Part shown: positions 48,947 to 62,712 of the stretch, in pieces
Numbering within the stretch: the first letter of the stretch is position 1
Layout of the letters: each line of letters begins with the position of its first letter
Assembly: GCA_900472675.1 (NCBI GenBank)
Contig: UCJA01000010.1
Location: 372,001-436,000, forward strand
Reading direction: 5' to 3'
Source of the DNA: Hyphomicrobiales bacterium
GTDB lineage: Bacteria; Pseudomonadota; Alphaproteobacteria; Rhizobiales; Rhizobiaceae
DNA length: 64,000 nt
Position numbers and translations under genes: made by a program
The notes under the pieces: model-generated
Database searches by the model: none
The model's input: the letters and a program-made list of their open reading frames with translations, nothing else
What the model was told of the DNA's origin: nothing

Positions 48947-51289
48947 TCACAGCATGCGGATGCTGGCCGGGCGGGCTTTGCGTTCCGGGTGAGCAAGGTG
49001 CATCTGCGCCTCGAAGGCCTCGCGCGGTACCGGACGCGACAGGAGGAAACCCTGTAGATCGGTGCAGCCGGCGGCCACGAGGAAATCTCTCTGCCCTTCC
49101 GTCTCGACGCCTTCTGCGGTCGTTGCCTTGCCGAGTGTGCGGCTGAGGCCGAGGATGGCGGACACGATGGCCGCCCCTTCCGCCTGCATGCCCAACAGCC
49201 GCACGAACGAGCGGTCGATCTTGATGCGATCGATGTTCAGCTGCACGAGGTGGCTGAGCGAGGAGAAACCCGTGCCGAAGTCGTCAAGTGCGATTCTGAT
49301 GCCCAGCGCCCTCAGCCGGCCGAGCGTGGCCTGTGACCTGTCGTCGATGTTGAACAGGGCAGCCTCTGTCAGTTCCAGCTCTAGCCGTGACGGCGCAAGC
49401 CCGCTCTCCTTGAGAAGCGCAACGACCTTGCATTCGAACTCCGCATGGCGGATCTGGGACGGCGACACATTGACGGCGATCACGAGATCCGCGGGCCAGC
49501 TGGCGGCAGCTTGTGCGGCATTGCGCATCACCCATTCGCCAAGCTGCTGGATCAGCCCGACTTCCTCGGCAATCGGAATGAAGCGGTCCGGCGACAGCAG
49601 GCCAAGCGTCGGATGACGCCATCGGACAAGGGCCTCGGCGCCGGAGAGTCTTGCCTGCCGGTCGCCGCGGTGGATGCCCTGATAGAAGATCTCCAGTGCC
49701 CCGACCTCGGCCGCGTGTGACCGTTCGCCTGCGTCGCCTTTGGGCGTGGTGTCCTGCAGAAGGATGCGCAGGTCGCGTTTCAGGTTCTCCCGGAGCTCGA
49801 TGCGGTGATCAAGGGCGGGATGGTATTCCACCACCTGTCCGCGGCCGTGGGTCTTTGCCTCGTAAAGGGCAAGGTCAGCGCGGCGGAAGAGTTCGCCGGT
49901 GGTTTCGGACGCATCGCGGATAACGGTGACGCCGATCGAACATCCGATGCGCACGGATAGATCGCCGCCCTGGAGAAGGAAGGGCTTGCTCATCTCTTCG
50001 ATGATGGTGCTGCAGATCCGTGTGTGCCGCGTGGCGGCATCGGAGAGTTCCGGAAGAAGAAGCGCAAACTCATCGCCGCCGGTCCTGGCGAGGGTATCGG
50101 TGGGCAGCAGGAGCGCACCCATCCGGGCCGCTGCGGCACGCAAGAGTTCGTCGCCGGCGCCGTGCCCGTAGGTGTCGTTGACCTCCTTGAACTTGTCGAG
50201 GTCGATCATGGCAACAACCGCCTGGCTGCGACGGGAGGCGACCGTCGTCAGGCACTGCTCCAGGCGCGATGTGAACAAGGCCCTGTTTGCCAGCCCCGTC
50301 AGCACGTCGTGAACCGACAGGTGGCGGGCATGATGCTCGCTCGCGCTCAACTCCCGCAAGCTGACGCGCAACCGCCTGATCAGCGCGAAGAACAGAATGG
50401 CGATGATGATGCCGGCGCCCGCCAGCACGGGCACGAGGCGCCCGATGACACGCGAACCGGGCAGTTCCGGCTTCCAGATGATGAAGCCGATGGGTTCGCC
50501 GGTCGTCGTGGCCTCGATCTGGTAGGCCACTTCATGATGCTCCTGGTCTGCGGTTCGGGCATAGCGGGCGCCGGCAAGCCCCTGTTCCCGGCTGATCGCA
50601 TCGAGCGCGGCGCCATCCAGGAACCGGAAGGCCACCAGATAGAGATGCACCGCGTCGTCTTTCGCGTGATCCAGTGCGACGGCTGCAGCCAGCGGCGAGA
50701 TCCTCACGATGCCGGCAACCGAGGGACGACCTTCCAGCCGCATCAGCTCCACGCGGATGGGTTCGTTTCCGGAGCCAGGCTGACCTGCGGGAAGCGGCTT
50801 GCTGCCGCCAAGGTCTCGAAGCAGAGGCATGAGCAGCGGTCGCACCCACTTGAAACGGCGGGTGGTTTCCGTATCGGCAGAGAGCGCCAGCGTGCCTTCC
50901 TGCGTAATCAGAAAGGCTGCATTATAGCCGAAGACCGTGCTGGCGATTTTCTCAAACGCCGCTGCGGGAGCGATCTCCCGCAGGACCGTGCGTCTGGAGG
51001 GATCCTCGGGCGCGATGCTCGGATCCGTCATCAGCAGCGAGGCGAAGCCCGCTCCCATCAGCCGGATTTCCTGTGACACGCGCTGAACCTGATCCTGGAG
51101 GCGTCCGGTGACCAGGCTGCGCTGCCGGTCGAGTGCCGCGCCATCGCTTGCCGCGGCCGCCCAGATTGCGGCGAAAAAGACCAGACCCAGGATGGCCAGC
51201 CCGCTGACGGACAGCAGGGCCAGGATCAGGCTGGAGGATGTCCAGCTCTTTCCGGTAATGGCGACCCTCCAAGGTAAAGCAGCAAGCAC
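48947..51289 (-). CDS. Membrane-bound GGDEF-EAL cyclic-di-GMP protein
   Basis: About 780 residues from GTG 51289, which has GGGAG 8 nt upstream. Helix 1 (LILALLSVSGLAILGLVFFA) and a second helix (VLAGAGIIIAILFFAL) bracket a periplasmic sensor of about 250 residues that I do not recognise. GGDEF (RTGGDEFALLLPE, near residue 403) is intact. The RxxD inhibitory site upstream is replaced by LPTD, so product inhibition is probably lost. The EAL domain (from about 530) keeps EALVRW, NVSPSQ, ELTEAAL, DDFGTGFSS, KIDRSF and AEGVETEGQ, so phosphodiesterase activity is also possible. Its entrance (LLQDTTPKGDAGERS) is longer than usual. It is near exopolysaccharide genes, a common output of c-di-GMP. Confidence 0.88.
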   Translation of the reverse strand: MLAALPWRVAITGKSWTSSSLILALLSVSGLAILGLVFFAAIWAAAASDGAALDRQRSLVTGRLQDQVQRVSQEIRLMGAGFASLLMTDPSIAPEDPSRRTVLREIAPAAAFEKIASTVFGYNAAFLITQEGTLALSADTETTRRFKWVRPLLMPLLRDLGGSKPLPAGQPGSGNEPIRVELMRLEGRPSVAGIVRISPLAAAVALDHAKDDAVHLYLVAFRFLDGAALDAISREQGLAGARYARTADQEHHEVAYQIEATTTGEPIGFIIWKPELPGSRVIGRLVPVLAGAGIIIAILFFALIRRLRVSLRELSASEHHARHLSVHDVLTGLANRALFTSRLEQCLTTVASRRSQAVVAMIDLDKFKEVNDTYGHGAGDELLRAAAARMGALLLPTDTLARTGGDEFALLLPELSDAATRHTRICSTIIEEMSKPFLLQGGDLSVRIGCSIGVTVIRDASETTGELFRRADLALYEAKTHGRGQVVEYHPALDHRIELRENLKRDLRILLQDTTPKGDAGERSHAAEVGALEIFYQGIHRGDRQARLSGAEALVRWRHPTLGLLSPDRFIPIAEEVGLIQQLGEWVMRNAAQAAASWPADLVIAVNVSPSQIRHAEFECKVVALLKESGLAPSRLELELTEAALFNIDDRSQATLGRLRALGIRIALDDFGTGFSSLSHLVQLNIDRIKIDRSFVRLLGMQAEGAAIVSAILGLSRTLGKATTAEGVETEGQRDFLVAAGCTDLQGFLLSRPVPREAFEAQMHLAHPERKARPASIRML

Positions 51290-51457
51290 GACGAATTCTC
51301 CCAACCGTGCCGACAATAGCCCAGATTGTTTACAGAATTCTTTTCAAGCAAAGTCAAAATCAATTGGAACAAATGCGGTAAACTTAAGGGTTGTATGGTT
51401 GTCTGGAGGGAGAAATCGTCGTGGGCCGCTTGGCGGGTATTGGGGGATGGGTTCGAC

Positions 51458-52690: not shown

Positions 52691-54229
52691 TCACTGATTG
52701 ACCGAAGCGTCGGCATACTCTCTCTGATCGAACTGTCTAAAGTGCCCGCCAAGCAGGGCGCCGACGAGCAGCATGCAAAGGCCAAGAGACAGGGGCGCGA
52801 AATACGCCTCCTCCTGGAAGAAGGCATTGGCCGTGATCACCGAGGGGGCGACGAAGCCGAATACAAACAGGCTTGATCGCGTCTGAAGGAAATAGGTCCA
52901 ACACCTGCGGCCGAGTGCAAGCACTGCACCGAAAATGGCAAAGGCGGCGATCCCCATCTGGTAGAGCAGAACGCCGACCGTGCTTTCCACCGGTACGGTT
53001 GTGGCGCCGCTTGCCTGCGCTGCCTGCCAGTCCACCGTCTGGCCCTGCGCGGACACGACGCCCCCGCTGCCCAGTCCGTGACCGGCTGGGTTGGAGATGA
53101 ACTCGCGCAGCCCGCTCATCAGGCCGAGCACGTGATAATCCTGCGAGCGTATGCCGAGAATGGTCGTGCCGACGATGTAGACCAGAAGCATGCCGCCGAA
53201 GGGCAGCAGCAGCTGTCGCGGACGGATGATCCGGGTCCCCACATACATTAGCGTGAACAGGAAGAAGAGCACCAGCGCGCCCTTAGCGCCCACGAAGATC
53301 ATTACCGGCAGCGCCAGCAGAGGTAGCCAGACCACACCCTGTGCCATGCACCAGATGCCGAGGATCGACAGCGCATACCCATAGCTGATCGGGTGGAAAT
53401 TCGGGCCGCTCAGCCGGAAGATGCGGATTGCATTCTCGCCGGCACCCGTAATGTTGAACAGGGGAACCGTCATATAGTCCTCAATGCCGCGCAGCACGAA
53501 GCCTGTCTGTTCCATCTGCTTCTGGAACGCCCCTGACAGGATCTCGTCGTACATGCGCAGATGGATGTAGCGATCACCGTTGAAGAGCGACAGGAATGAG
53601 GTCGTGAAGAACAGCTCGCAATAGCCGTAAAGAACGATCGCCAGCATGAAGACGGCCACTGTGGGGAGCAGCGCAAGGCGAAACCGGTAGCCGCAGACCA
53701 GCGACACATAGAAGCAGGCGAGCGGCGTGCAGAGGTTCCGGAAGTAGATGATGGCGTCGCGTCCATTACCCACCGCCAGCCCCAGGGCCATGTAGACCAT
53801 GATCAGACCAAGCGTCAGCCAGAGCAGTCTAATATAGCGCAGAACCGCGGCCGAATACTGCTGCGGCTGCAGGATGGTAGACAGCATAGCGCTTCCGAAT
53901 GCCGTCATCAGGATCACGAAGTTCAGCGCCCGCATCGTGTCGAAGGTCGAGGTGTCATCGACCATGCCTGTCATGAAGGCGACGAATGAGTTCTGGAAGA
54001 GCATCGAGAACAGGATGAGCGCGGGCAGCATGCGCGCGTGCAGAAAGGCAAGGGCCAGTGTCGCGAGCATGGCAAGGCCGAAGCCAAGGAGGATATTGCC
54101 CGGCATCAGCAGGACGCCAAGCAGCATGATCGCGGCGCTGCCGAAGAAATCGGTCAATACGCTGCGGGTGCCTTGTGCGAGCCCGGTAGCGCGTGCTCGA
54201 GGCAGGCTTTCCGCGCTGACGGCGCTCAT
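52691..54229 (-). CDS. Wzy-like polysaccharide polymerase / O-antigen-ligase-type membrane protein
   Basis: A 512-residue protein with about 11-12 hydrophobic segments and a long periplasmic loop in the second half (about residues 370-420, GLRSQDYHVLG-like GIRSQDYHVLGLMSGLREF, then NPAGHGLGSGGVV). The loop motif with HGLGSGG is typical of Wzy/WaaL proteins such as those with the O-antigen-ligase domain. It would join lipid-linked repeat units in the periplasm. Its start overlaps the flippase stop (ATGA). I cannot separate polymerase from ligase by sequence alone, but the Wzx and chain-length neighbours favour polymerase. Confidence 0.75.
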   Translation of the reverse strand: MSAVSAESLPRARATGLAQGTRSVLTDFFGSAAIMLLGVLLMPGNILLGFGLAMLATLALAFLHARMLPALILFSMLFQNSFVAFMTGMVDDTSTFDTMRALNFVILMTAFGSAMLSTILQPQQYSAAVLRYIRLLWLTLGLIMVYMALGLAVGNGRDAIIYFRNLCTPLACFYVSLVCGYRFRLALLPTVAVFMLAIVLYGYCELFFTTSFLSLFNGDRYIHLRMYDEILSGAFQKQMEQTGFVLRGIEDYMTVPLFNITGAGENAIRIFRLSGPNFHPISYGYALSILGIWCMAQGVVWLPLLALPVMIFVGAKGALVLFFLFTLMYVGTRIIRPRQLLLPFGGMLLVYIVGTTILGIRSQDYHVLGLMSGLREFISNPAGHGLGSGGVVSAQGQTVDWQAAQASGATTVPVESTVGVLLYQMGIAAFAIFGAVLALGRRCWTYFLQTRSSLFVFGFVAPSVITANAFFQEEAYFAPLSLGLCMLLVGALLGGHFRQFDQREYADASVNQ

Positions 54230-55509
54230 GGCGTGGCGCCCTTCAACCGGAACGATGGGACGGCGCCGCGATAGCTCCGGTACATGCTGACGAGACCGGC
54301 AAGATAGGCAATGCCCACAGAGATGACGGCGCTATTGGCGTCGAACCGACCCAGCGCCAGCGCGGCAAGCACCACCACGGCCATCACGGCCATGGAGACT
54401 GCATTGGCATGGGCAACCGCGCGGCTTTGCCGCATCACGGTCAGCGCCGCCTCGAAGGGGGAGGAAAATACCACAGGCACCAGGGCGAGCGCCCAGAGGC
54501 GGGCCGTGGTGGTCGCCGACAGGCCGTTTTCGCCATAGAGTAGCCAGAGCAGCGGCTCGGTGATGAGCAGAATGACAATCAGCGGAAGGGTGCAGGTGAC
54601 GAGCAGGGTGCCGTGCATGACGCGGACCCTTTGCCCGATTGCCTGCTCACCCTCTTCGGCAATGATGCGCGCCATCCGCGAGCGTTCCGTGTCCACGACC
54701 GCATGCTGCACGAGCGTCAGCGGGCGGATCAGCGTCCGGGCGAAGGAAAAGACGGCGACGGCTGCCGGTCCGGACACGATGCCGAGCAGCACCTGCGCGC
54801 CATTGGTGGCGATGTGGAGCGCGACACTTGCGGTGGCAAATTCCATCATCGTGCGGCGCAGTTCGAACAGCTTGGCGAAGGCAGCGCGGGAATATCGCGC
54901 CCGCGATGCCACCCAGATCATGAAGGCTGCAGAGGAAATGCCGTAGCCGAGACTGATGACGGTGGCACCCACGACTGCATCGGCGTGGGGCGCCAGCCAC
55001 ATCAAAAACAGGCCTCCCAGCGTCACGACGGCGATGCAGATGGCATTGGCAAGCGCCAGCACCGGTCGCCCAAGCAGATAGAAGGCCTGGCGCAGGAAGA
55101 GGAAGAGCGAGCCGCAGAAGCTGACTGGCGCCGCCAGCATGGTGGCGAGCCCCATGGCCGGATCATAGGGCCGCAACAGCAGGCCAGCCACGAAAAGGAC
55201 GAGCGCGCAGATCGCGGTGGTCGCGATATTCAGCGCAATGAAGCTGCCGAAAGTTTCGAGATCGGTTTCCGGCCTCGGGCAGGTTGCCGTCAGCGGCAGC
55301 ACCACGATGGCGCGCTGCAAGGCCTCGACCAGCATCCAGAGCACAAGGCTGGAGGCGACGATGCCGACCTCGTCCAGGCCGATCTGGCGCGACATGATGG
55401 CAAGCGAGGCAAGGCTGGTGGCCGCCACGATCGCCTGTTCGGTCACGCCGATCAGCCATTGCTGGGCGCGGATGCGCTGGATGATCGCGCCGAGAGAAAA
55501 GCGCCTCAT
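54226..55509 (-). CDS. Wzx-like polysaccharide flippase
   Basis: A 427-residue polytopic protein started at ATG 55509, with about 12 helices. The N-terminus WLIGVTEQAIVAATSLASLA, then MSRQIGLDEVGIVASSLVLWML, is typical of the MATE/MOP-fold polysaccharide exporters. LVQHAVVDTERSRMARIIAEEGE is a conserved cytoplasmic loop. It should flip undecaprenyl-linked repeat units across the inner membrane. It overlaps the GH5 gene upstream by 4 nt and the polymerase gene downstream by 4 nt. Confidence 0.8.
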   Translation of the reverse strand: MRRFSLGAIIQRIRAQQWLIGVTEQAIVAATSLASLAIMSRQIGLDEVGIVASSLVLWMLVEALQRAIVVLPLTATCPRPETDLETFGSFIALNIATTAICALVLFVAGLLLRPYDPAMGLATMLAAPVSFCGSLFLFLRQAFYLLGRPVLALANAICIAVVTLGGLFLMWLAPHADAVVGATVISLGYGISSAAFMIWVASRARYSRAAFAKLFELRRTMMEFATASVALHIATNGAQVLLGIVSGPAAVAVFSFARTLIRPLTLVQHAVVDTERSRMARIIAEEGEQAIGQRVRVMHGTLLVTCTLPLIVILLITEPLLWLLYGENGLSATTTARLWALALVPVVFSSPFEAALTVMRQSRAVAHANAVSMAVMAVVVLAALALGRFDANSAVISVGIAYLAGLVSMYRSYRGAVPSFRLKGATP

Positions 55510-56648
55510 GGCTTTCTCCCCAGAAGCGCATCGATCATCAACGGATCGACGGTAGCGGGCCTGTTCCTGTCCGTCATGAAACCGAACCCCTGGTCGATCT
55601 CCCAATGGGCCCAGCCGAAGCCGCCATCCTCGGCGCCGGTGCGCAGGGCCTTGAGCCAGAGCGCCCGGTCGCTGGGCTTGGCGCCGCTGCGAAACACGCC
55701 GAACTCGTTGACCGTGACCGGCCAGCCGGTCTTGACCGACCAGTCCTTGAGGCGGGCCATGTCCTTGCCGACCCGGGCGGGCGTCCAGTCGGTCTCTGTC
55801 TCCTTGTCGATGAGCGCTACCGCATCCGGATGCCCCTTGACCTGCATCCGCTGGCGCAGGCCACGGACACTGTCGAGATTGCGCGAGGAAGGAAAAGGAA
55901 AGCCGCTGATCGCCTTCAACGGCCCTTCGGACCAGGTCTGCGCCTGATGGGTGAAGATCATCGGGTAGTAATAGTGGACGGCGACGATCGCATTGTCGTC
56001 CTTGGGGCCTTTGTCGGCCAGGGTCTCTTCCACCGTCTGGTAGTTGGCGGCACCCCAGACGAGCGTATGCGCCGTCGTGCTGCGGCGGATCGTTTCGACC
56101 AGCGTCTGTCGCAGTTTCGGCCAGAGATCTGTGGGCAGCGCCGGCTCGTTCAGCATTTCCAGCATCACGGCGTCGGCCGGTTGGTCGGCGCAGAGCGGCA
56201 AAAGCGTCCGCCATGCCTCCACAATCATGTCTGCACCCTGGTCGGGATGCTGGCGAAGCAAGTCTGCGCTCTTCGGGCCCGGATGCATGTCGAGCGTTAC
56301 GGTAAAGCCCGCTGACAGGAACTGGCCGACTGCAAGATCAATCGCCGCCAGGAACAGCGAGGTCTGGCGGGCGTCCTGGCGCAGCAGGGCAGGCTCGATC
56401 GGCAGCCGGATGCTGTCGAAGCCGAGCCTGTGCAGAGCCGCCAAAGCCTGGGATTCGATCCGGCGCATCTCCGCCAAAGGAGTGTCGCCGATGCCCGGCA
56501 GGTTGAAGCCCCGCCGTGCCTTGCCAAGCCGTCGTGCCGCCGTGGTGGCGCCATCGCTGGCGCCTTGGCTCGGGCCGGCCGCGCTCGCGAAGGCGCCAGT
56601 GCCCAGAGCGGCGAGCAACGTCCTCCTCGATAGCGTCAAAAGGGTCAT
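55506..56648 (-). CDS. Secreted GH5-type glycoside hydrolase
   Basis: A 380-residue protein with an export signal that starts TLSRRTLLAALGTGAFASAA; the twin arginine suggests possible Tat export. The (beta/alpha)8 barrel has the GH5 acid/base Glu168 (EMLNEP), HYYYP, and nucleophile Glu315 (VTVNEFGVF), with RLPIEP and LDMHPG earlier. This is the cellulase-like clan A pattern. It sits between chain-length and flippase genes with a 4-nt overlap, so it probably trims or releases the polymer made by this cluster in the periplasm rather than degrading plant cellulose. Confidence 0.82.
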   Translation of the reverse strand: MTLLTLSRRTLLAALGTGAFASAAGPSQGASDGATTAARRLGKARRGFNLPGIGDTPLAEMRRIESQALAALHRLGFDSIRLPIEPALLRQDARQTSLFLAAIDLAVGQFLSAGFTVTLDMHPGPKSADLLRQHPDQGADMIVEAWRTLLPLCADQPADAVMLEMLNEPALPTDLWPKLRQTLVETIRRSTTAHTLVWGAANYQTVEETLADKGPKDDNAIVAVHYYYPMIFTHQAQTWSEGPLKAISGFPFPSSRNLDSVRGLRQRMQVKGHPDAVALIDKETETDWTPARVGKDMARLKDWSVKTGWPVTVNEFGVFRSGAKPSDRALWLKALRTGAEDGGFGWAHWEIDQGFGFMTDRNRPATVDPLMIDALLGRKP

Positions 56649-56693: not shown

Positions 56694-58280
56694 TTATCGC
56701 AATCCCGTCCCGGTACCGAAGCGTCGCGGATGGCGTGATGCGTCGGGCAGGGCGGGGTCGTCGGGAGGAATCTGGCTGAGCAGGCTCGGAACAGGTGGCC
56801 GGGCCGGGCGTCGCCGGACCGGTTCCGGTTCCCGCTCCGGCTCGACAGCGCGGGTGACCGTCGGCGCAGCCATGCCGCTGCGCAGAAAGGCCAGCACGAT
56901 GCCGCCGGCAAGGCCGACAAAGCCGGCCAGTGCCAGTACGACGGTGCCCTTGGGCCAGGTCGCCTTGGAGGGCGGCACGGCCGCCGTAATGACTTCCGCA
57001 TCCGGACGGGCCATGCTTGCCTGTTCGCCCGTCTCGCGCGACCGCTGCAGGTATTCTTCCAGTACCTTGCGCCGTGCATCCGCTTCGCGCTCGAGGGCGC
57101 GCAGCTGCACTTCTGCCTGGCGCATGCCGCGGATGGTCTGCACCAGCTGATCCACCTTGGCCTTGGTCGTGGCCAGATTGCTCTTGGCCACATTCAGGTC
57201 CAGCTTGGCGCCGTCGACGACGCGGTCGGCTTCCCGCTGCATCTGCCGCTGCAGCTCGTTCATCTCGAGCTTCTGGCTCTGGATATTGGGGTGCCGTGCA
57301 CCCAGCGTATTCGTGAGGCGTTGCAGCTCTGCTTCCCGCGCATTGTACTGCGAGCGCAGCTGGGCGGCCGTCACGGAATCGATCGCGCCGAAGTTCTGCG
57401 GTCCGCCCTTGGCCGCTGTGATCAGCTGTTTGTAGCGGGCTTCCGCCGCGCTCTGGTTGGCCGTGGCCGTGGACAGCTGCTGGCTGGCCTGCATGAGTTC
57501 CGATTCAAACAGCGCCGGTCCCTGGCTGAAACCGTCGAAGCCTTCGGATGCCTTGAAGTCCTCCACCTGGCGTTCCGCCTGGTCGACGCCGGCGCGCAGC
57601 TCGATCAGGCGCCCTTCCAGCATGGAGGTGGCGTCGCGGGTGGAGCCGCTCTTCTTGGCGATCTGTTCGGAGACGTAGCGTTCCGCAATCGCATTGGCGA
57701 GCCGTGCTGCCTTGTCCGCATCCTTCGACTTGACGGCGATCGTCAGGATGTAGGTGAGGCCACGTCGCTCGACCTTCAGCGCATCGGTAAATTTGTCGAA
57801 GGCGTCCTGTTCGGCATGCGGGTTGTCGGCGTGCCAACCGATGAGGCGCGCGAGCAGGCCGCCGCCTGAAAATTCGCTGTCTTCGGCAAGCTTCAGATTC
57901 TGGAACAGCGGAAACAGCAGCTGTCGGGACGTGATGATTTCCACCTGGCTTTCCAGCATGGCGGCATCCTGGCCCACTCCATCCGCAACGGCCGCGGAGG
58001 GCACGATATTCGGCACCTTCGGGTCGATCAGCAGCACGGTTTCCGCTTGGTAAGTCTTCGGAGTGACGGCAAGATAGGCGGCGCCGCACAGCAGCGACAG
58101 GATCAGCGTCAGGCCGATGGTCTTGTAGCCGGAACGCAGCGTGCCGAGGATCTGGCGCATGTCAAGGAGGCCGGCATCCTGGTCCTGAGGCCGCCGTTCG
58201 CTGGATACGGGATGTGCGTGATCGTCTCGTATTGTGCTCAAAGAACCGAAGCCTCGTGCTGGTGGCGCAGATATAGTCAC
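56694..58280 (-). CDS. Polysaccharide co-polymerase (Wzz/Wzc-type chain-length protein, no kinase)
   Basis: 528 residues from GTG 58280; this start has no good ribosome site and a later TTG or ATG 58160 is possible. Helix 1 is IGLTLILSLLCGAAYLAV, followed by the Wzz segment YQAETVLLIDPKVPN. A long coiled-coil region lies in the periplasm (about residues 215-430, e.g. QLRSQYNAREAELQRLTN). Helix 2 is TVVLALAGFVGLAGGIVLAF. A short proline/arginine-rich tail ends the protein and there is no Walker-type kinase domain. It controls chain length and export, and may pair with a separate kinase elsewhere. It leads the reverse exopolysaccharide operon. Confidence 0.83.
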   Translation of the reverse strand: MTISAPPARGFGSLSTIRDDHAHPVSSERRPQDQDAGLLDMRQILGTLRSGYKTIGLTLILSLLCGAAYLAVTPKTYQAETVLLIDPKVPNIVPSAAVADGVGQDAAMLESQVEIITSRQLLFPLFQNLKLAEDSEFSGGGLLARLIGWHADNPHAEQDAFDKFTDALKVERRGLTYILTIAVKSKDADKAARLANAIAERYVSEQIAKKSGSTRDATSMLEGRLIELRAGVDQAERQVEDFKASEGFDGFSQGPALFESELMQASQQLSTATANQSAAEARYKQLITAAKGGPQNFGAIDSVTAAQLRSQYNAREAELQRLTNTLGARHPNIQSQKLEMNELQRQMQREADRVVDGAKLDLNVAKSNLATTKAKVDQLVQTIRGMRQAEVQLRALEREADARRKVLEEYLQRSRETGEQASMARPDAEVITAAVPPSKATWPKGTVVLALAGFVGLAGGIVLAFLRSGMAAPTVTRAVEPEREPEPVRRRPARPPVPSLLSQIPPDDPALPDASRHPRRFGTGTGLR

Positions 58281-58351: not shown

Positions 58352-58434
58352 AACCTTTTACCAGCGCAGGCACTTCTGATTGATGTTAGGACACGTTGCG
58401 AAACCGGGCCTTGCGGCCAAACTGGGCATCACGC

Positions 58435-59178
58435 ATGACTAAGGCGATTGTAGCCGGAATTAACACGACGACAATGGGACGCGACGATCTAGAAGATTTC
58501 GTGTTTTTAAGCGTCCGTGGCGGCAGGGAAGGGTCCCGGCCGAAGCTGCTTTACGACATCAATGGGCACGCCATCAGCCTGTTCCGGTCCGATCACCGCT
58601 ACCGCGAGGCGCTCGAGGCTGCGGACCTCGTCCATGCGGACGGGCAGTCGGTCGTGGTGGCGTCGCGCCTGCTCTGCGCCCAACCGATCCGTGAACGGAC
58701 GGCGACCACGGACATGCTGCTGGACTATGCGGTGCGGGCGGAAAAGGAAGGGGTCAGCTTCTTTCTGCTGGGCGGCGACGAGGTCACCAACGCAGCCTGT
58801 GCAGCGCGGCTGCGCGAACTGTATCCGACCCTCAAGATCGCCGGTCGCCACCACGGCTATTTCTCGTCCGCCGAAGAGGCTTCCGTCCTGCAGGCGATCG
58901 AAGACAGCGGCGCCGACATCCTCTGGGTGGGACTGGGCAAGCCGCTGGAACAGATCTTCGGCGTGCGGGCGCGCGAACGCCTGTCGTGCAGCTGGATCAT
59001 CACCTGCGGCGGCTGCTTCAACTACACCACGGGCCGGTACCGCCGGGCTCCGAAGTGGATGCAGCGCTGGGGTTTCGAGTGGCTGCACCGGATGGCCACC
59101 GAGCCTGACAAGCTGTTCTGGCGCTATCTCTCGACGAACCCGATTGCCACGTTCTGGATCTTGAAGGATTCCCGATGA
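58435..59178 (+). CDS. WecG/TagA/CpsF-family glycosyltransferase (GT26)
   Basis: A 247-residue cytoplasmic enzyme started at ATG 58435. LVHADGQSVVVAS, FFLLGGDEVT, ILWVGLGKPLEQIF and RRAPKWMQRWGFEWLHRMATEP are the ordered GT26 blocks. These enzymes add the second sugar (N-acetylmannosamine, its uronic acid, or glucose) to an undecaprenyl-diphosphate-linked sugar. It overlaps the next glycosyltransferase gene by 4 nt. The initiating phosphosugar transferase is not in the window. Confidence 0.87.
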   Translation: MTKAIVAGINTTTMGRDDLEDFVFLSVRGGREGSRPKLLYDINGHAISLFRSDHRYREALEAADLVHADGQSVVVASRLLCAQPIRERTATTDMLLDYAVRAEKEGVSFFLLGGDEVTNAACAARLRELYPTLKIAGRHHGYFSSAEEASVLQAIEDSGADILWVGLGKPLEQIFGVRARERLSCSWIITCGGCFNYTTGRYRRAPKWMQRWGFEWLHRMATEPDKLFWRYLSTNPIATFWILKDSR

Positions 59179-60143
59179 CCACGGATACCACTGGCTCTGC
59201 CGCGGCCACACCGCTGTTCTCCATCATCATTCCCGCCTACAATCGGGCAAAGATCATCGAGCGGACTCTGCGGTCGGTGCTGGCACAGAGCTTTTCCGAT
59301 TTCGAGTGCCTGGTGATCGACGACGGTTCCAAGGATTCGGCAGAACTTGCCGCTCTCGTCGCATCCTTTCGCGATCAGCGGCTAAAATACTTCCGCCAGG
59401 AAAACGGTGGCGCCAGTGCTGCGCGCAACACTGGTGCAAGGGTCGCATCCGGAGAGTATCTCGTCTATCTGGATTCGGACGACCTCTTTCTGCCCGAAAA
59501 GCTCCGGGAAACGGAGGCGGTCCTGCGTGAGACGCCTGATATCGGCGTCTACAGCCGGGCCTATGTGGATCGCGGCGTCGGCAGATACTGGCTGCGGCCC
59601 GACCGCGCCATCGGCGATGACGAGGAGATGGGTGACTACCTGTTCATCCACAACCAGTTCATCCCCACCTCGACCCTGGTCGTGCCGCGCGAGATTGCCC
59701 GGCAGGTCCAGTTCGACGCCGACCTGCGCCACGTGGAAGACCCCGATTTTTGCTACCGCCTCTATGAAGCGGGGCTGCGGTTCAAGATGATCGAGACGCC
59801 GTTGACGCTCTGGAGCGATGTCAGCGGTCATGCCCGGCTGTCGCAGGAGCCCTCGTCCAACTCGCCGTCCGTCTGGCTCAGCAAGATGAAGGGCAGGATC
59901 CCGAAACGGATCGAACGCGGCTACCGGGTCACCATCCTGGCGAACTACCTTGCCTACCGTCAGCCGTTCACCGTGATGCGCGATCTTCTGGTCGGATGGA
60001 TGCTGGCCGGGGTGCCGTGGAAGATCGTGGCGCGTCAAGCGGTGCGCAGCTTCATGCCGAAGCCCCTCTACCGCCGGCTGGTCAACTCCTACCTGCGCCA
60101 GCACGGGCTGGTGTTGACCCTGCTGATCCCCGGGCTGCTCTAG
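59175..60143 (+). CDS. Family 2 glycosyltransferase
   Basis: A 322-residue GT-A enzyme. FSIIIPAYNRAKIIERTL and CLVIDDGSKDS form the nucleotide-binding half, QENGGASAARNTGA is conserved, and YLDSDDLFLP carries the metal-binding DxD. It lacks clear membrane helices except a hydrophobic C-terminus (LVLTLLIPGLL). It extends the repeat unit after the GT26 enzyme. Its stop codon shares four bases (CTAG) with the stop of the convergent deacetylase. Confidence 0.88.
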   Translation: MTTDTTGSAAATPLFSIIIPAYNRAKIIERTLRSVLAQSFSDFECLVIDDGSKDSAELAALVASFRDQRLKYFRQENGGASAARNTGARVASGEYLVYLDSDDLFLPEKLRETEAVLRETPDIGVYSRAYVDRGVGRYWLRPDRAIGDDEEMGDYLFIHNQFIPTSTLVVPREIARQVQFDADLRHVEDPDFCYRLYEAGLRFKMIETPLTLWSDVSGHARLSQEPSSNSPSVWLSKMKGRIPKRIERGYRVTILANYLAYRQPFTVMRDLLVGWMLAGVPWKIVARQAVRSFMPKPLYRRLVNSYLRQHGLVLTLLIPGLL

Positions 60144-60898
60144 ATCGCAGAGGGACGCTGCGGCGCCGACAAACGGTCGAGCGCCGCGTCGATCTTCAGC
60201 ACCTCGCATCCCAGGTCGAGCGCCCGTGCCACCAGTCGCTCCAGCGTTTCGGGTCGTGCTCCATAGGGGCTCGGCGAGGACGAGACGTCATGGGTGAAGT
60301 AGATCAGCCAGCCGGGATCGGCGACCGCATCGTCCAGCCAAGTGGCAAGGCCCGCATCCTCCGGCTGGCCGATCTCCACCGCACTCAGCTGAAAAGCCGG
60401 AACCCTGCCGCGATTGATGCCGCGATGGCCGCCCCGAGCCGTGCGAAAGCGCGACCGGAGCGCTGGCAGGCCGCCGATTGTGCCCTTGTTGAAGGGGTAG
60501 GCGAAGTTGGACGGCTTGAAGCCTGGCAGCATGCTTTCGAAGAAATCGGCATTCCGAGCAAGATCGTCCGCTCCCGCCGCGGCATTCATGGCGCGCAGCC
60601 CCCGGTGGCTGAAGGTGTGGCAGGCCAGTTCATGTCCGGCTGACGCCAGACGTTGCAGCGAATTGGTATCCGCAAAACCCTTTTCGCGACCCTCGGACGC
60701 CAATCCGCCGGCAATGTAGAACGTGCCCCTGACGCCCATCTGCTCCAGCAGGGTGGCACCGGTCGATGCAGCCGAGAGCGGAATGTCGTCGAAGGTGAAG
60801 CTCACGATCGGGCGGCTGGGCCGCACGCTGATGCGCGGGCTAAGAACATGGCGGATCAGCAGGTTGTCGCCGGCATGCAGCAAGGATGAGGCTGTCAT
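60140..60898 (-). CDS. NodB-type polysaccharide deacetylase
   Basis: A 252-residue carbohydrate-esterase-4 protein. VSFTFDDIPLSA holds the catalytic Asp pair, LACHTFSHRG the two metal histidines, FAYPFNKG motif 3 and IYFTHDVSS the late histidine. There is no signal peptide, so it may act on lipid-linked units in the cytoplasm. It overlaps the tandem-hydrolase gene by 4 nt. It is expected to remove N- or O-acetyl groups from the exopolysaccharide. Confidence 0.85.
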   Translation of the reverse strand: MTASSLLHAGDNLLIRHVLSPRISVRPSRPIVSFTFDDIPLSAASTGATLLEQMGVRGTFYIAGGLASEGREKGFADTNSLQRLASAGHELACHTFSHRGLRAMNAAAGADDLARNADFFESMLPGFKPSNFAYPFNKGTIGGLPALRSRFRTARGGHRGINRGRVPAFQLSAVEIGQPEDAGLATWLDDAVADPGWLIYFTHDVSSSPSPYGARPETLERLVARALDLGCEVLKIDAALDRLSAPQRPSAI

Positions 60899-62712
60899 GC
60901 CTGCATCCCGCTTTTCCTGGCGGCGACCTCTCGGGCCATTCTTGCGATTTCCACGGTCATCGCCGCGCGGGCGTTCGGTGTGAGCATGTTGTGCTCCGCA
61001 TCGGAGACAATCAAAAAGCCGACTTCAGGCAGACCGGCAAGATGACCACTGCTCGTGTCGAAATGGCGCTGGAGATAGTCGAGGCCGATGTCGCCTTCCG
61101 TGTACACGAAGGAAACAGCGGCGCCTCGTGCGGTGATCGAGCCCAGGGCATCGGTGATGGAGCATCGTTTGCCGTCAAAGATCTGCAGCCGGGCCAGAAC
61201 GGGTTTCAGCTTTGCCAGACCCTTGTGAAGGGCTTGCCTCGAGATATTGGTCAGACCGTTGCGGATCTTTACCTCGCCGGACAGGATCTTCCGCCAGCTG
61301 TGGAAAGTGAGGATCTTGGACGTGTAACTGCTCAGCCGCTGCGGCACGAACAGGAGAAGGTCCTGGAGGTTCTGGCGCGGATCCCATTCCAGCGTATAGG
61401 CATTGCCGACGACCGCGCCGGACAGGCGATGATCCTGAAGGACTGCGCGGAACGCGAGATAGGCGCCGCTGCAGCGCCCGGCGACAATCAACGGCCCGGG
61501 GCAGCGCGTCTCCATCAGGGTGATGGCAGCATCCACATCCGCCTGCTGGCTCTCGGTATAGAGCACCTGGTCCGGCGCGCCATCCCGCGGCAGGCTGTCC
61601 CCGACATTGGCCATGTCGAAGCGCAGCGAGGCGACGCCGTCCGCCGCCAGGTCACGGGCAAGGGTAACGACGGTGCGGCCCCAGCCGGCGGCCCTCTCAT
61701 AGGAAGGGTTGAGCAGGATGACGTGTGCCGAGCCAACCGGCTTTTGTTTTGGTTCGCAGAGAATGCCGTAAAGCCGGTCCTGATCCAGCCGCAGGTGCGT
61801 CTCGATGAAATGCGGGCCCTCGAGGCGGACTTCCGCGGGTGGCAGCGGCGGTACGGCTCTTGCGCCGCGGGGAGGGCCGGAGAGGGTTTCCGCCCATGCG
61901 GAAAGGTCGCCAAGCAAGCCTTCCGGGATGGCCTGCAGCGTCAGGTTCGAGACCAGTGCCAGATATTCGTCATAGACGCGGGTTTCCACTGAAACGCCCA
62001 GCGCCCGCAGCTGCACCGCGAGGTCAGTGGCCGCCGAATGATCCGGCCGGGGCGCCAGGAAGACGGCGGCCTCCATCTGCCGGGCCCTGATCTTCAGGCT
62101 GCGAATGTCTTCGGTCACCGGTTTGGCAATGACCTCGCCGCCAAGCACCAGGTGGTCCGCAACAAGCGATGCCGTCATCGGCTCGCTCATGCGCGACCAG
62201 ACGGACTGTTCGCGAAGGTAGGATCGGCCGTCGAGGACAGGGGCCAGAAGCGCCACACCCGCAAGGCCGGGCACGTCGGCCGAGGCCTCGTAGGCAAGTG
62301 CCGCGCCAAGGCCCTGGCCGACCAGAAGAATGCGCCTGCAGCCGGAGATCTCCCGCAGGAGGTCAGCAAAGGCCACAACGCTTGCGCGCCAGCAGCCAGG
62401 GGTAAAGGCCTCGGGCGCAAGATCGAGAGCGTCGCCGGTGCCGGGATAATCGAACCGCAGGCTTGGCATTCCGCGCGCAGCGAAGGACTCGGCCATCGCC
62501 CGATAGAACTTGCGCGCGCAGATCTCCTCAAAGCCGAAGGGGCTAACCAGCAGCACGGCGGTATCGGTGGAGCGGCTGCCGGGATGGGGCGGCTGGTAGA
62601 GTGCCGGCGTTTGGCCGTGAATAATCGGGATGGCAGCCGTCCGGGCGCGCGGCAGCACGGATTGTCCAACGGGAGTTTCCGCCTCTTTGTGCCTGTCGAT
62701 CGACAATGTCAT
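60895..62712 (-). CDS. Tandem alpha/beta-hydrolase with Gly and Cys in place of the nucleophile Ser
   Basis: A 605-residue protein started at ATG 62712, containing two alpha/beta-hydrolase domains in one chain. Domain 1 (about 45-265) has PFGFEEICARKFYRAM and FDYPGTGD, but its nucleophile elbow is G132-Q-G-L-G136, with glycine at the catalytic position and no late histidine, so it is probably inactive. Domain 2 (about 300-605) has FDMANVGDS and the elbow G412-R-C-S-G416 with Cys414, plus TEGDIGLDY and DAEHNMLTP for the acid and histidine. The overall pattern resembles the two separate hydrolases that accompany exosortase-A exopolysaccharide clusters, of which one has Cys in the elbow. No exosortase is seen here. 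Confidence 0.78.
   Translation of the reverse strand: MTLSIDRHKEAETPVGQSVLPRARTAAIPIIHGQTPALYQPPHPGSRSTDTAVLLVSPFGFEEICARKFYRAMAESFAARGMPSLRFDYPGTGDALDLAPEAFTPGCWRASVVAFADLLREISGCRRILLVGQGLGAALAYEASADVPGLAGVALLAPVLDGRSYLREQSVWSRMSEPMTASLVADHLVLGGEVIAKPVTEDIRSLKIRARQMEAAVFLAPRPDHSAATDLAVQLRALGVSVETRVYDEYLALVSNLTLQAIPEGLLGDLSAWAETLSGPPRGARAVPPLPPAEVRLEGPHFIETHLRLDQDRLYGILCEPKQKPVGSAHVILLNPSYERAAGWGRTVVTLARDLAADGVASLRFDMANVGDSLPRDGAPDQVLYTESQQADVDAAITLMETRCPGPLIVAGRCSGAYLAFRAVLQDHRLSGAVVGNAYTLEWDPRQNLQDLLLFVPQRLSSYTSKILTFHSWRKILSGEVKIRNGLTNISRQALHKGLAKLKPVLARLQIFDGKRCSITDALGSITARGAAVSFVYTEGDIGLDYLQRHFDTSSGHLAGLPEVGFLIVSDAEHNMLTPNARAAMTVEIARMAREVAARKSGMQA

Follow-up and report, generated by a model that had tools for sequence, protein, structure and literature searches.

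A tandem α/β-hydrolase with an invariant cysteine elbow as a predicted partner of amino acid:[carrier protein] ligases in surface polysaccharide modification

Introduction

The amino acid:[carrier protein] ligases are tRNA-synthetase-like enzymes that load an amino acid onto a carrier protein; the biological role of this attachment was stated as unknown in a 2022 study (PMC9437257). On the basis of gene neighbourhoods, Aravind and colleagues suggested that the ligase system attaches an amino acid to a cell-surface sugar by way of the sugar's amino group, and proposed Atu2574 to be the amide-forming enzyme (PMC2922099, note in proof). By gene order, Atu2574 would be the DUF1839 protein of this system, a family that is described as papain-like in PMC10318531, where a role in glycan processing is suggested. 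A second set of proteins, the exosortase-associated hydrolases 1 and 2 (TIGR03100 and TIGR03101), bears only the label 'hypoth_equivalog' in NCBIfam. Here, we describe a gene that might connect both sets: a tandem α/β-hydrolase encoded in a stretch of 64,000 nucleotides (positions 372,001 to 436,000 of contig UCJA01000010.1, assembly GCA_900472675.1, from a Hyphomicrobiales bacterium of the Rhizobiaceae), which is called the window throughout and to which all coordinates refer. We propose, at roughly even chances, that its product is a cysteine acyltransferase moving an aminoacyl group from a carrier protein to a surface polysaccharide.

Co-occurrence with the ligase and its gene cassette

Among 199 genomes of the window's order—the tandem enzyme being called at E ≤ 1e-25 with at most six candidates scored per genome—the tandem enzyme is found in 26 and the ligase in 38. 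Every one of the 26 tandem genomes bears a ligase at ≥62% identity, and 12 of the other 173 bear one at ≤50%. Fisher's test gives 1e-23 with all 38 ligases and 4e-33 for the split into these two classes, both values ignoring relatedness and the 62%/50% boundary having been drawn after the gap in the data was seen. In a further sample of 60 relatives, tandem enzyme and ligase occur in the same 23 genomes, with one additional genome (G050) carrying a distant ligase only. Within the window's genus, 21 of 36 genomes bear both and the remaining 15 neither. That the tandem enzyme belongs to the pathway of the closer ligases, termed class 1 in the following, appears well supported by this distribution. 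Since the enzyme co-occurs with an amino acid:[carrier protein] ligase, the acyl group it handles is more likely to be an aminoacyl group on the carrier protein than an acetyl group. Polysaccharide acetylation as the default reading was given less weight, as an amino acid ligase is the donor system that accompanies the enzyme.

Gene clustering across 42 stretches exposed a recurrent cassette beside the tandem gene, whose representatives are a carrier protein (NF005480), an acyl-CoA-dehydrogenase-like protein, the ligase (NF005479, above cut-off), a DUF1839 protein, and a GH2-like protein. Outside the window, 31 tandem loci were examined, and at 18 of them the fetched stretch includes the ligase. 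Conversely, 18 of 30 ligase loci bear a tandem gene, which is a biased rate as some stretches were picked for holding the ligase. The class-1 ligase loci examined number 30, from 29 of the 46 genomes of the relative and order samples plus one additional record (L062). DUF1839 and GH2 are present in all 30, the carrier protein and the dehydrogenase-like gene in 29 each; one stretch (L141) starts inside the cassette, and L062 gave no dehydrogenase match. The latter is a Burkholderiales record with a tandem gene, ligase, carrier protein, DUF1839, and GH2-like gene.

The window's own genome bears an intact cassette (L148) at the very end of contig C25, a contig other than that of the window. Its ligase reaches 517.5 bits in NCBIfam (cut-off 357) and matches the solved ligases 4h2w and 3mey; its carrier protein reaches 115.1 bits (cut-off 72), with matches to the 4h2w carrier (119.7 bits) and to the solved Atu2571 (119.6 bits). 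The DUF1839 and GH2-like domains are found there as well.

For the second ligase class (L162-L173, ≤50% identity), 12 stretches of 8-15 kilobases (kb) were analyzed. The dehydrogenase-like gene is present in 10 of these, and no DUF1839, GH2, or tandem match was obtained in any of them. Hence, DUF1839, GH2, and the tandem enzyme seem to track the class-1 branch. A GNAT-like transferase was considered by eye as a second-class replacement, based on one cluster present at 6 of 10 loci; its representative gave neither a Pfam nor an NCBIfam match, and the candidate was dropped.

Such strict co-occurrence with the ligase, together with an α/β-hydrolase fold and an intact triad, would also be compatible with a type II thioesterase, i.e., a Cys hydrolase that would hydrolyse misloaded or stalled acyl groups off the carrier protein. 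Fold matches of a structure model fit this idea, with a thioesterase domain at rank 7 and RhlA, titled as thioesterase and acyltransferase, at rank 29; the model itself is weak (see below). However, a proofreading enzyme is expected beside the carrier protein and once per genome, whereas the tandem gene is unlinked to the ligase in 13 of 31 loci, and four genomes bear several tandem genes for a single ligase match (three in G032, two each in G003, G034, and G045). Such multiplicity is as expected of a polymer-specific last step; the window's genome (G000) has a single tandem gene. The lack of a tandem gene in the 12 second-class stretches speaks against the thioesterase as well, and we regard it as distinctly unlikely.

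Anatomy of the tandem protein

The longest frame of the tandem gene reaches as far as a TTG (63096). Alignment with the nearest relative (65% identity) starts at residue 1, and hence the ATG start is favoured (Table 1). Two α/β-hydrolase domains are recognized above gathering scores in Pfam—Hydrolase_4 with its best stretch at residues 68-206 and Abhydrolase_6 at 333-465. The top NCBIfam matches are hydrolase 2 in the N-half (residues 32-167; 73.2 bits, curated cut-off 202.75) and hydrolase 1 in the C-half (residues 313-494; 78.5 bits, curated cut-off 168.45). Both scores lie below their cut-offs, and true membership in the exosortase hydrolase families was not accepted; as judged from these profiles, the tandem protein is a homologue rather than a member.

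Conservation was assessed in an alignment of 51 rows—the window's protein and 50 homologues, some of them near-copies—from which three duplicates and seven proteins shorter than 550 amino acids had been left out. The first elbow carries Gly in 38 rows, Arg in 13, and Ser in none; the second carries Cys in all 51, and the Asp and His of the C-half are kept nearly throughout (Table 1). An ordinary Ser esterase was ruled out by the lack of Ser at both elbows in these rows, and so was a one-off mutation in the window's gene. For the N-half, no His, Ser, or Cys column is conserved in 36 or more rows: the best is Cys65 (35 of 51), followed by Ser columns at 161 and 173 (28 of 51 each). As all of these lie off the elbow, the N-half looks non-catalytic. 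In one genome (G016; L022, L027, L030), the tandem matches are broken across open frames at two places, where sequencing error and decay were not distinguished.

An earlier note on this DNA, made from the sequence alone, had described a tandem hydrolase with Gly and Cys elbows, Gly134 and Cys414, the latter with an intact Asp and His. This description agrees with the alignment, and Ser in close homologues—named beforehand as the finding that would speak against it—occurs at neither elbow. The note had also seen a likeness to a fusion of two exosortase-linked hydrolases in the lack of an exosortase; the likeness is borne out at the level of homology, and a search for the exosortase (PF09721) in the window's genome gave no match.

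A structure model of the tandem protein reached a mean predicted local distance difference test (pLDDT) score of 55.6, was built from three sequences, and was not used for function.

Kinship with the exosortase-associated hydrolases

A TIGR03100 search of 398 genomes of the phylum gave a hydrolase 1 match in 27 at 1e-25, 25 of them above cut-off. Its elbow carries Cys in 27 of 27 rows, and the catalytic His and Asp are likewise present (Table 1). TIGR03101 matches 12 of these 27 genomes at 1e-20, 7 above cut-off. With a profile of our own made from the N-half, 21 rows could be named as hydrolase 2, some of them weakly matched, and six loci yielded no row; Arg stands at the elbow in all 21. Because Ser is missing in the tandem rows and in both free-standing partners, a non-Ser first elbow combined with a Cys second elbow is, as read from these alignments, the rule of the pair and not an oddity. 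The earlier note's wording that Gly and Cys stand there instead of Ser is hence right about the residues and wrong if taken as a departure from the exosortase pair. In the lineage of the window, Gly seems to have replaced an earlier Arg at the first elbow.

The two groups differ in setting: the exosortase is present in 26 of 27 hydrolase 1 genomes vs. 2 of 45 tandem genomes. No TIGR03100 match above cut-off was found in the 199 genomes of the window's order. A TIGR03101 search in 11 order genomes gave no match anywhere and is uninformative, as its controls were silent too. In a C-half tree, a branch with support 99/93 separates the 51 tandem proteins from the other proteins.

Two genomes deserve separate mention. 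G343 (L090/L132) bears a fused hydrolase 2–hydrolase 1 protein and an exosortase in the genome. Since this protein groups with the exosortase-type proteins on the tree, though on a long branch, it probably marks a second, independent fusion. G544 (L091/L133), a genome of the window's order without an exosortase match, carries unfused, adjacent hydrolase 2-like and hydrolase 1-like genes that are placed next to the tandem group on the tree. A 2106-codon open frame lies beside this pair, and no carrier protein is found among the clustered nearby genes.

Of the 27 hydrolase 1 neighbourhoods found, 12 were examined (L124-L135), and a small carrier protein is present in 11 of these, the exception being G544. 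In at least 7 of the 12, it lies directly upstream of hydrolase 2. Genes clustering with the TIGR03098 ligase occur in 9 of the 12, one representative having been scored.

These neighbourhoods bear on the role of DUF1839. It could be DUF1839 that forms the amide bond, with the tandem hydrolase performing a second step—for example, one in which the polymer receives the product from an acceptor that is lipid-linked or intermediate. DUF1839 is encoded at every class-1 ligase locus examined, has an invariant Cys in 15 of 15 aligned proteins, and is, like the tandem enzyme, absent from the 12 stretches of the other ligase class. Its papain-like classification and the 2010 prediction of an amide-forming ligase neighbour, both introduced above, point the same way. 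Yet no DUF1839 match was obtained in the 12 hydrolase 1 neighbourhoods, 11 of which combine a carrier protein with the hydrolase pair. Hence, the hydrolase pair seems able to serve a carrier protein without DUF1839, and we consider such a division of labour possible but rather unlikely.

Polysaccharide setting

In the window, the tandem gene lies in a polysaccharide cluster (Table 1), and the ATG of the adjacent deacetylase shares four bases with the tandem stop (60898-60895). The two proteins lacking a Pfam match are polymerase and flippase candidates by place and look. The strand of the tandem gene also encodes a GGDEF-EAL protein (48947-51316), and a cyclic-di-GMP link to the polysaccharide cluster is possible.

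Table 1. Features of the tandem gene and its polysaccharide neighbours in the window
Feature	Position	Strand	Remarks
Tandem α/β-hydrolase, 605 amino acids	60895..62712	-	ATG start
N-half, about residues 32-280	61873..62619	-	hydrolase 2/TIGR03101-like; no recognisable catalytic triad
Cys65 codon	62518-62520	-	after conserved F-E-E-I stretch of N-half; away from elbow
First elbow, G132-Q-G134-L-G136	62305..62319	-	
C-half, about residues 300-600	60913..61815	-	hydrolase 1/TIGR03100-like; Cys-Asp-His triad
Second elbow, G412-R-C414-S-G416	61465..61479	-	
Asp541 codon	61090..61092	-	kept in 50/51 tandem and 26/27 hydrolase 1 rows
His574 codon	60991..60993	-	kept in 51/51 tandem and 27/27 hydrolase 1 rows
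Polysaccharide deacetylase	60140..60898	-	Polysacc_deac_1; nearest NCBIfam HfsH, 182.8 bits (below cut-off 400)
Glycosyltransferase family 2	59175..60143	+	Pfam
WecG/TagA/CpsF glycosyltransferase	58396..59178	+	Pfam, NCBIfam
Wzz chain-length determinant	56694..58280	-	Pfam, NCBIfam
Glycoside hydrolase family 5 (cellulase family)	55506..56648	-	Pfam
Protein without Pfam match	54226-55509		scanned only inside a longer frame
Protein without Pfam match	52691-54229		

This setting recurs in part. The nearest relative (L104) keeps all seven tested neighbours of the window in unchanged order. At least one homologue of these seven polysaccharide neighbours is found near 9 of the 13 unlinked tandem loci and near 5 of the 18 ligase-linked ones; for 24 stretches without a tandem match above 100 bits, the count is 2, with a glycosyltransferase only. 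The deacetylase is present in 20 of the 199 order genomes—10 of the 26 with the tandem enzyme and 10 of the 173 others (Fisher 2e-5). In 8 of these 10 tandem genomes (G000, G054, G100, G122, G136, G167, G195, and G219), which represent three genera, with six genomes from one, the deacetylase and tandem genes are no more than 6 kb apart. As only 10 of 26 tandem genomes bear it, an obligatory partnership was ruled out.

A location among polysaccharide genes would equally suit a trimming enzyme, an esterase or amidase that removes acyl groups from the polymer and has no chemical relation to the carrier protein; its co-occurrence with the ligase would then stem from genes for surface polymers being regulated or transferred together. 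In line with this, the solved proteins matched best by the C-half profile include MHETase and feruloyl or cinnamoyl esterases. The co-occurrence is specific to the ligase, however: the deacetylase, the single polysaccharide control, is present in 10 of the 26 tandem genomes. Esterases usually bear Ser at the nucleophile position, which in the tandem enzyme is invariably Cys. A trimming enzyme is therefore improbable in our assessment.

Proposed reaction

For the cysteine acyltransferase, the following order of events is conceivable. The ligase would activate a small amino acid and charge the phosphopantetheine arm of the small carrier protein, where the acyl-CoA-dehydrogenase-like flavoprotein may oxidise the bound amino acid. 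The Cys414-His574-Asp541 triad of the C-half would then accept the aminoacyl group as a thioester and hand it on, either to a surface polysaccharide or to a precursor of one. At the window's locus, the HfsH-like deacetylase encoded next to the tandem enzyme may provide the acceptor by freeing an amine. The N-half, as a non-catalytic hydrolase fold, probably has a role in carrier protein docking or in the shape of the active site. Uptake of the acyl group from a carrier is the simplest assumption because the tandem enzyme was not found without the ligase in the samples and because its hydrolase 1 cousins lie near a carrier protein. A sugar polymer as acceptor is suggested by the polysaccharide genes, by the genomes in which one ligase goes with more than one tandem copy, and by the coupling to the deacetylase gene.

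Several observations weigh against this proposal. The tandem gene of the window lies apart from the ligase cassette, and 4 of the 13 unlinked tandem loci (L108, L109, L116, and L118) lack any of the window's polysaccharide neighbours. The deacetylase was not found at E ≤ 1e-25 in 16 of the 26 tandem genomes and is no general requirement. DUF1839, which is present at all 30 class-1 loci examined and has a Cys that is invariant in the 15 aligned proteins, could itself do the transfer. The structure model is weak, and its matches as well as the profile matches are generic α/β-hydrolases. The co-occurrence counts carry the limits given with them above—relatedness, a post hoc class boundary, and the number of tandem candidates scored per genome in the order sample. 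Activity, acyl-enzyme, and polymer acylation are predictions at this stage.

On a broader scale, the pair of a dead elbow and a Cys elbow might be a general module that moves activated groups from small carrier proteins to surface polysaccharides. Exosortase A clusters would use it in the form of separate genes, supplied by an AMP ligase. The fused form, supplied by the tRNA-synthetase-like amino acid:[carrier protein] ligase, would be that of the window's order and of at least one record from the Burkholderiales. We put this forward tentatively, at somewhat less than even chances. If true, it would provide a function for both the class-1 ligases and the exosortase-associated hydrolases, for which one concrete and testable reaction is hereby offered.

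Two points appear to be new here: in the samples, the tandem Cys enzyme strictly accompanies the ligase, and it is akin to the exosortase-associated hydrolases. Neither the portions of PMC2922099 considered here nor those of PMC9437257 name the tandem hydrolase as part of the ligase system. Among the matches listed in a literature search, which covered few subscription journals, no title links the tandem enzyme to the amino acid:[carrier protein] ligase or treats the Cys of hydrolase 1; prior publication is still possible.

Comparison with known systems

Cys-nucleophile α/β-hydrolases with a G-x-C-x-G elbow and Asp and His are known from PHA synthase and dienelactone hydrolase. These resemble the tandem C-half by motif only, and neither appears by name among 40 profile matches. 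In NodB/NodA-type acylation, NodB acts before NodA—the same logic as a deacetylase followed by acyl transfer. BtrH-type and NodB/NodA-type acylation of amino sugars are akin to the proposal in using a free sugar amine and an acyl group from a carrier protein; no sequence relation is claimed.

The amino acid:[carrier protein] ligase pathway (NF005479/NF005480; 3mey/4h2w) shares its ligase and carrier protein with the window's genome. The closest relatives of the tandem enzyme itself are the exosortase-associated hydrolases. Hydrolase 1 is like the C-half in homology, Cys elbow, Asp, and His, but is encoded by a gene of its own in 26 of 27 rows, unlike the fused tandem enzyme. Hydrolase 2 is like the N-half in homology and in its Ser-free elbow, with E62 and D88 conserved in both; its elbow bears Arg, whereas the window's protein bears Gly. 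In exosortase-type loci, the gene for hydrolase 2 precedes that for hydrolase 1, which is the order of the two halves in the tandem chain.

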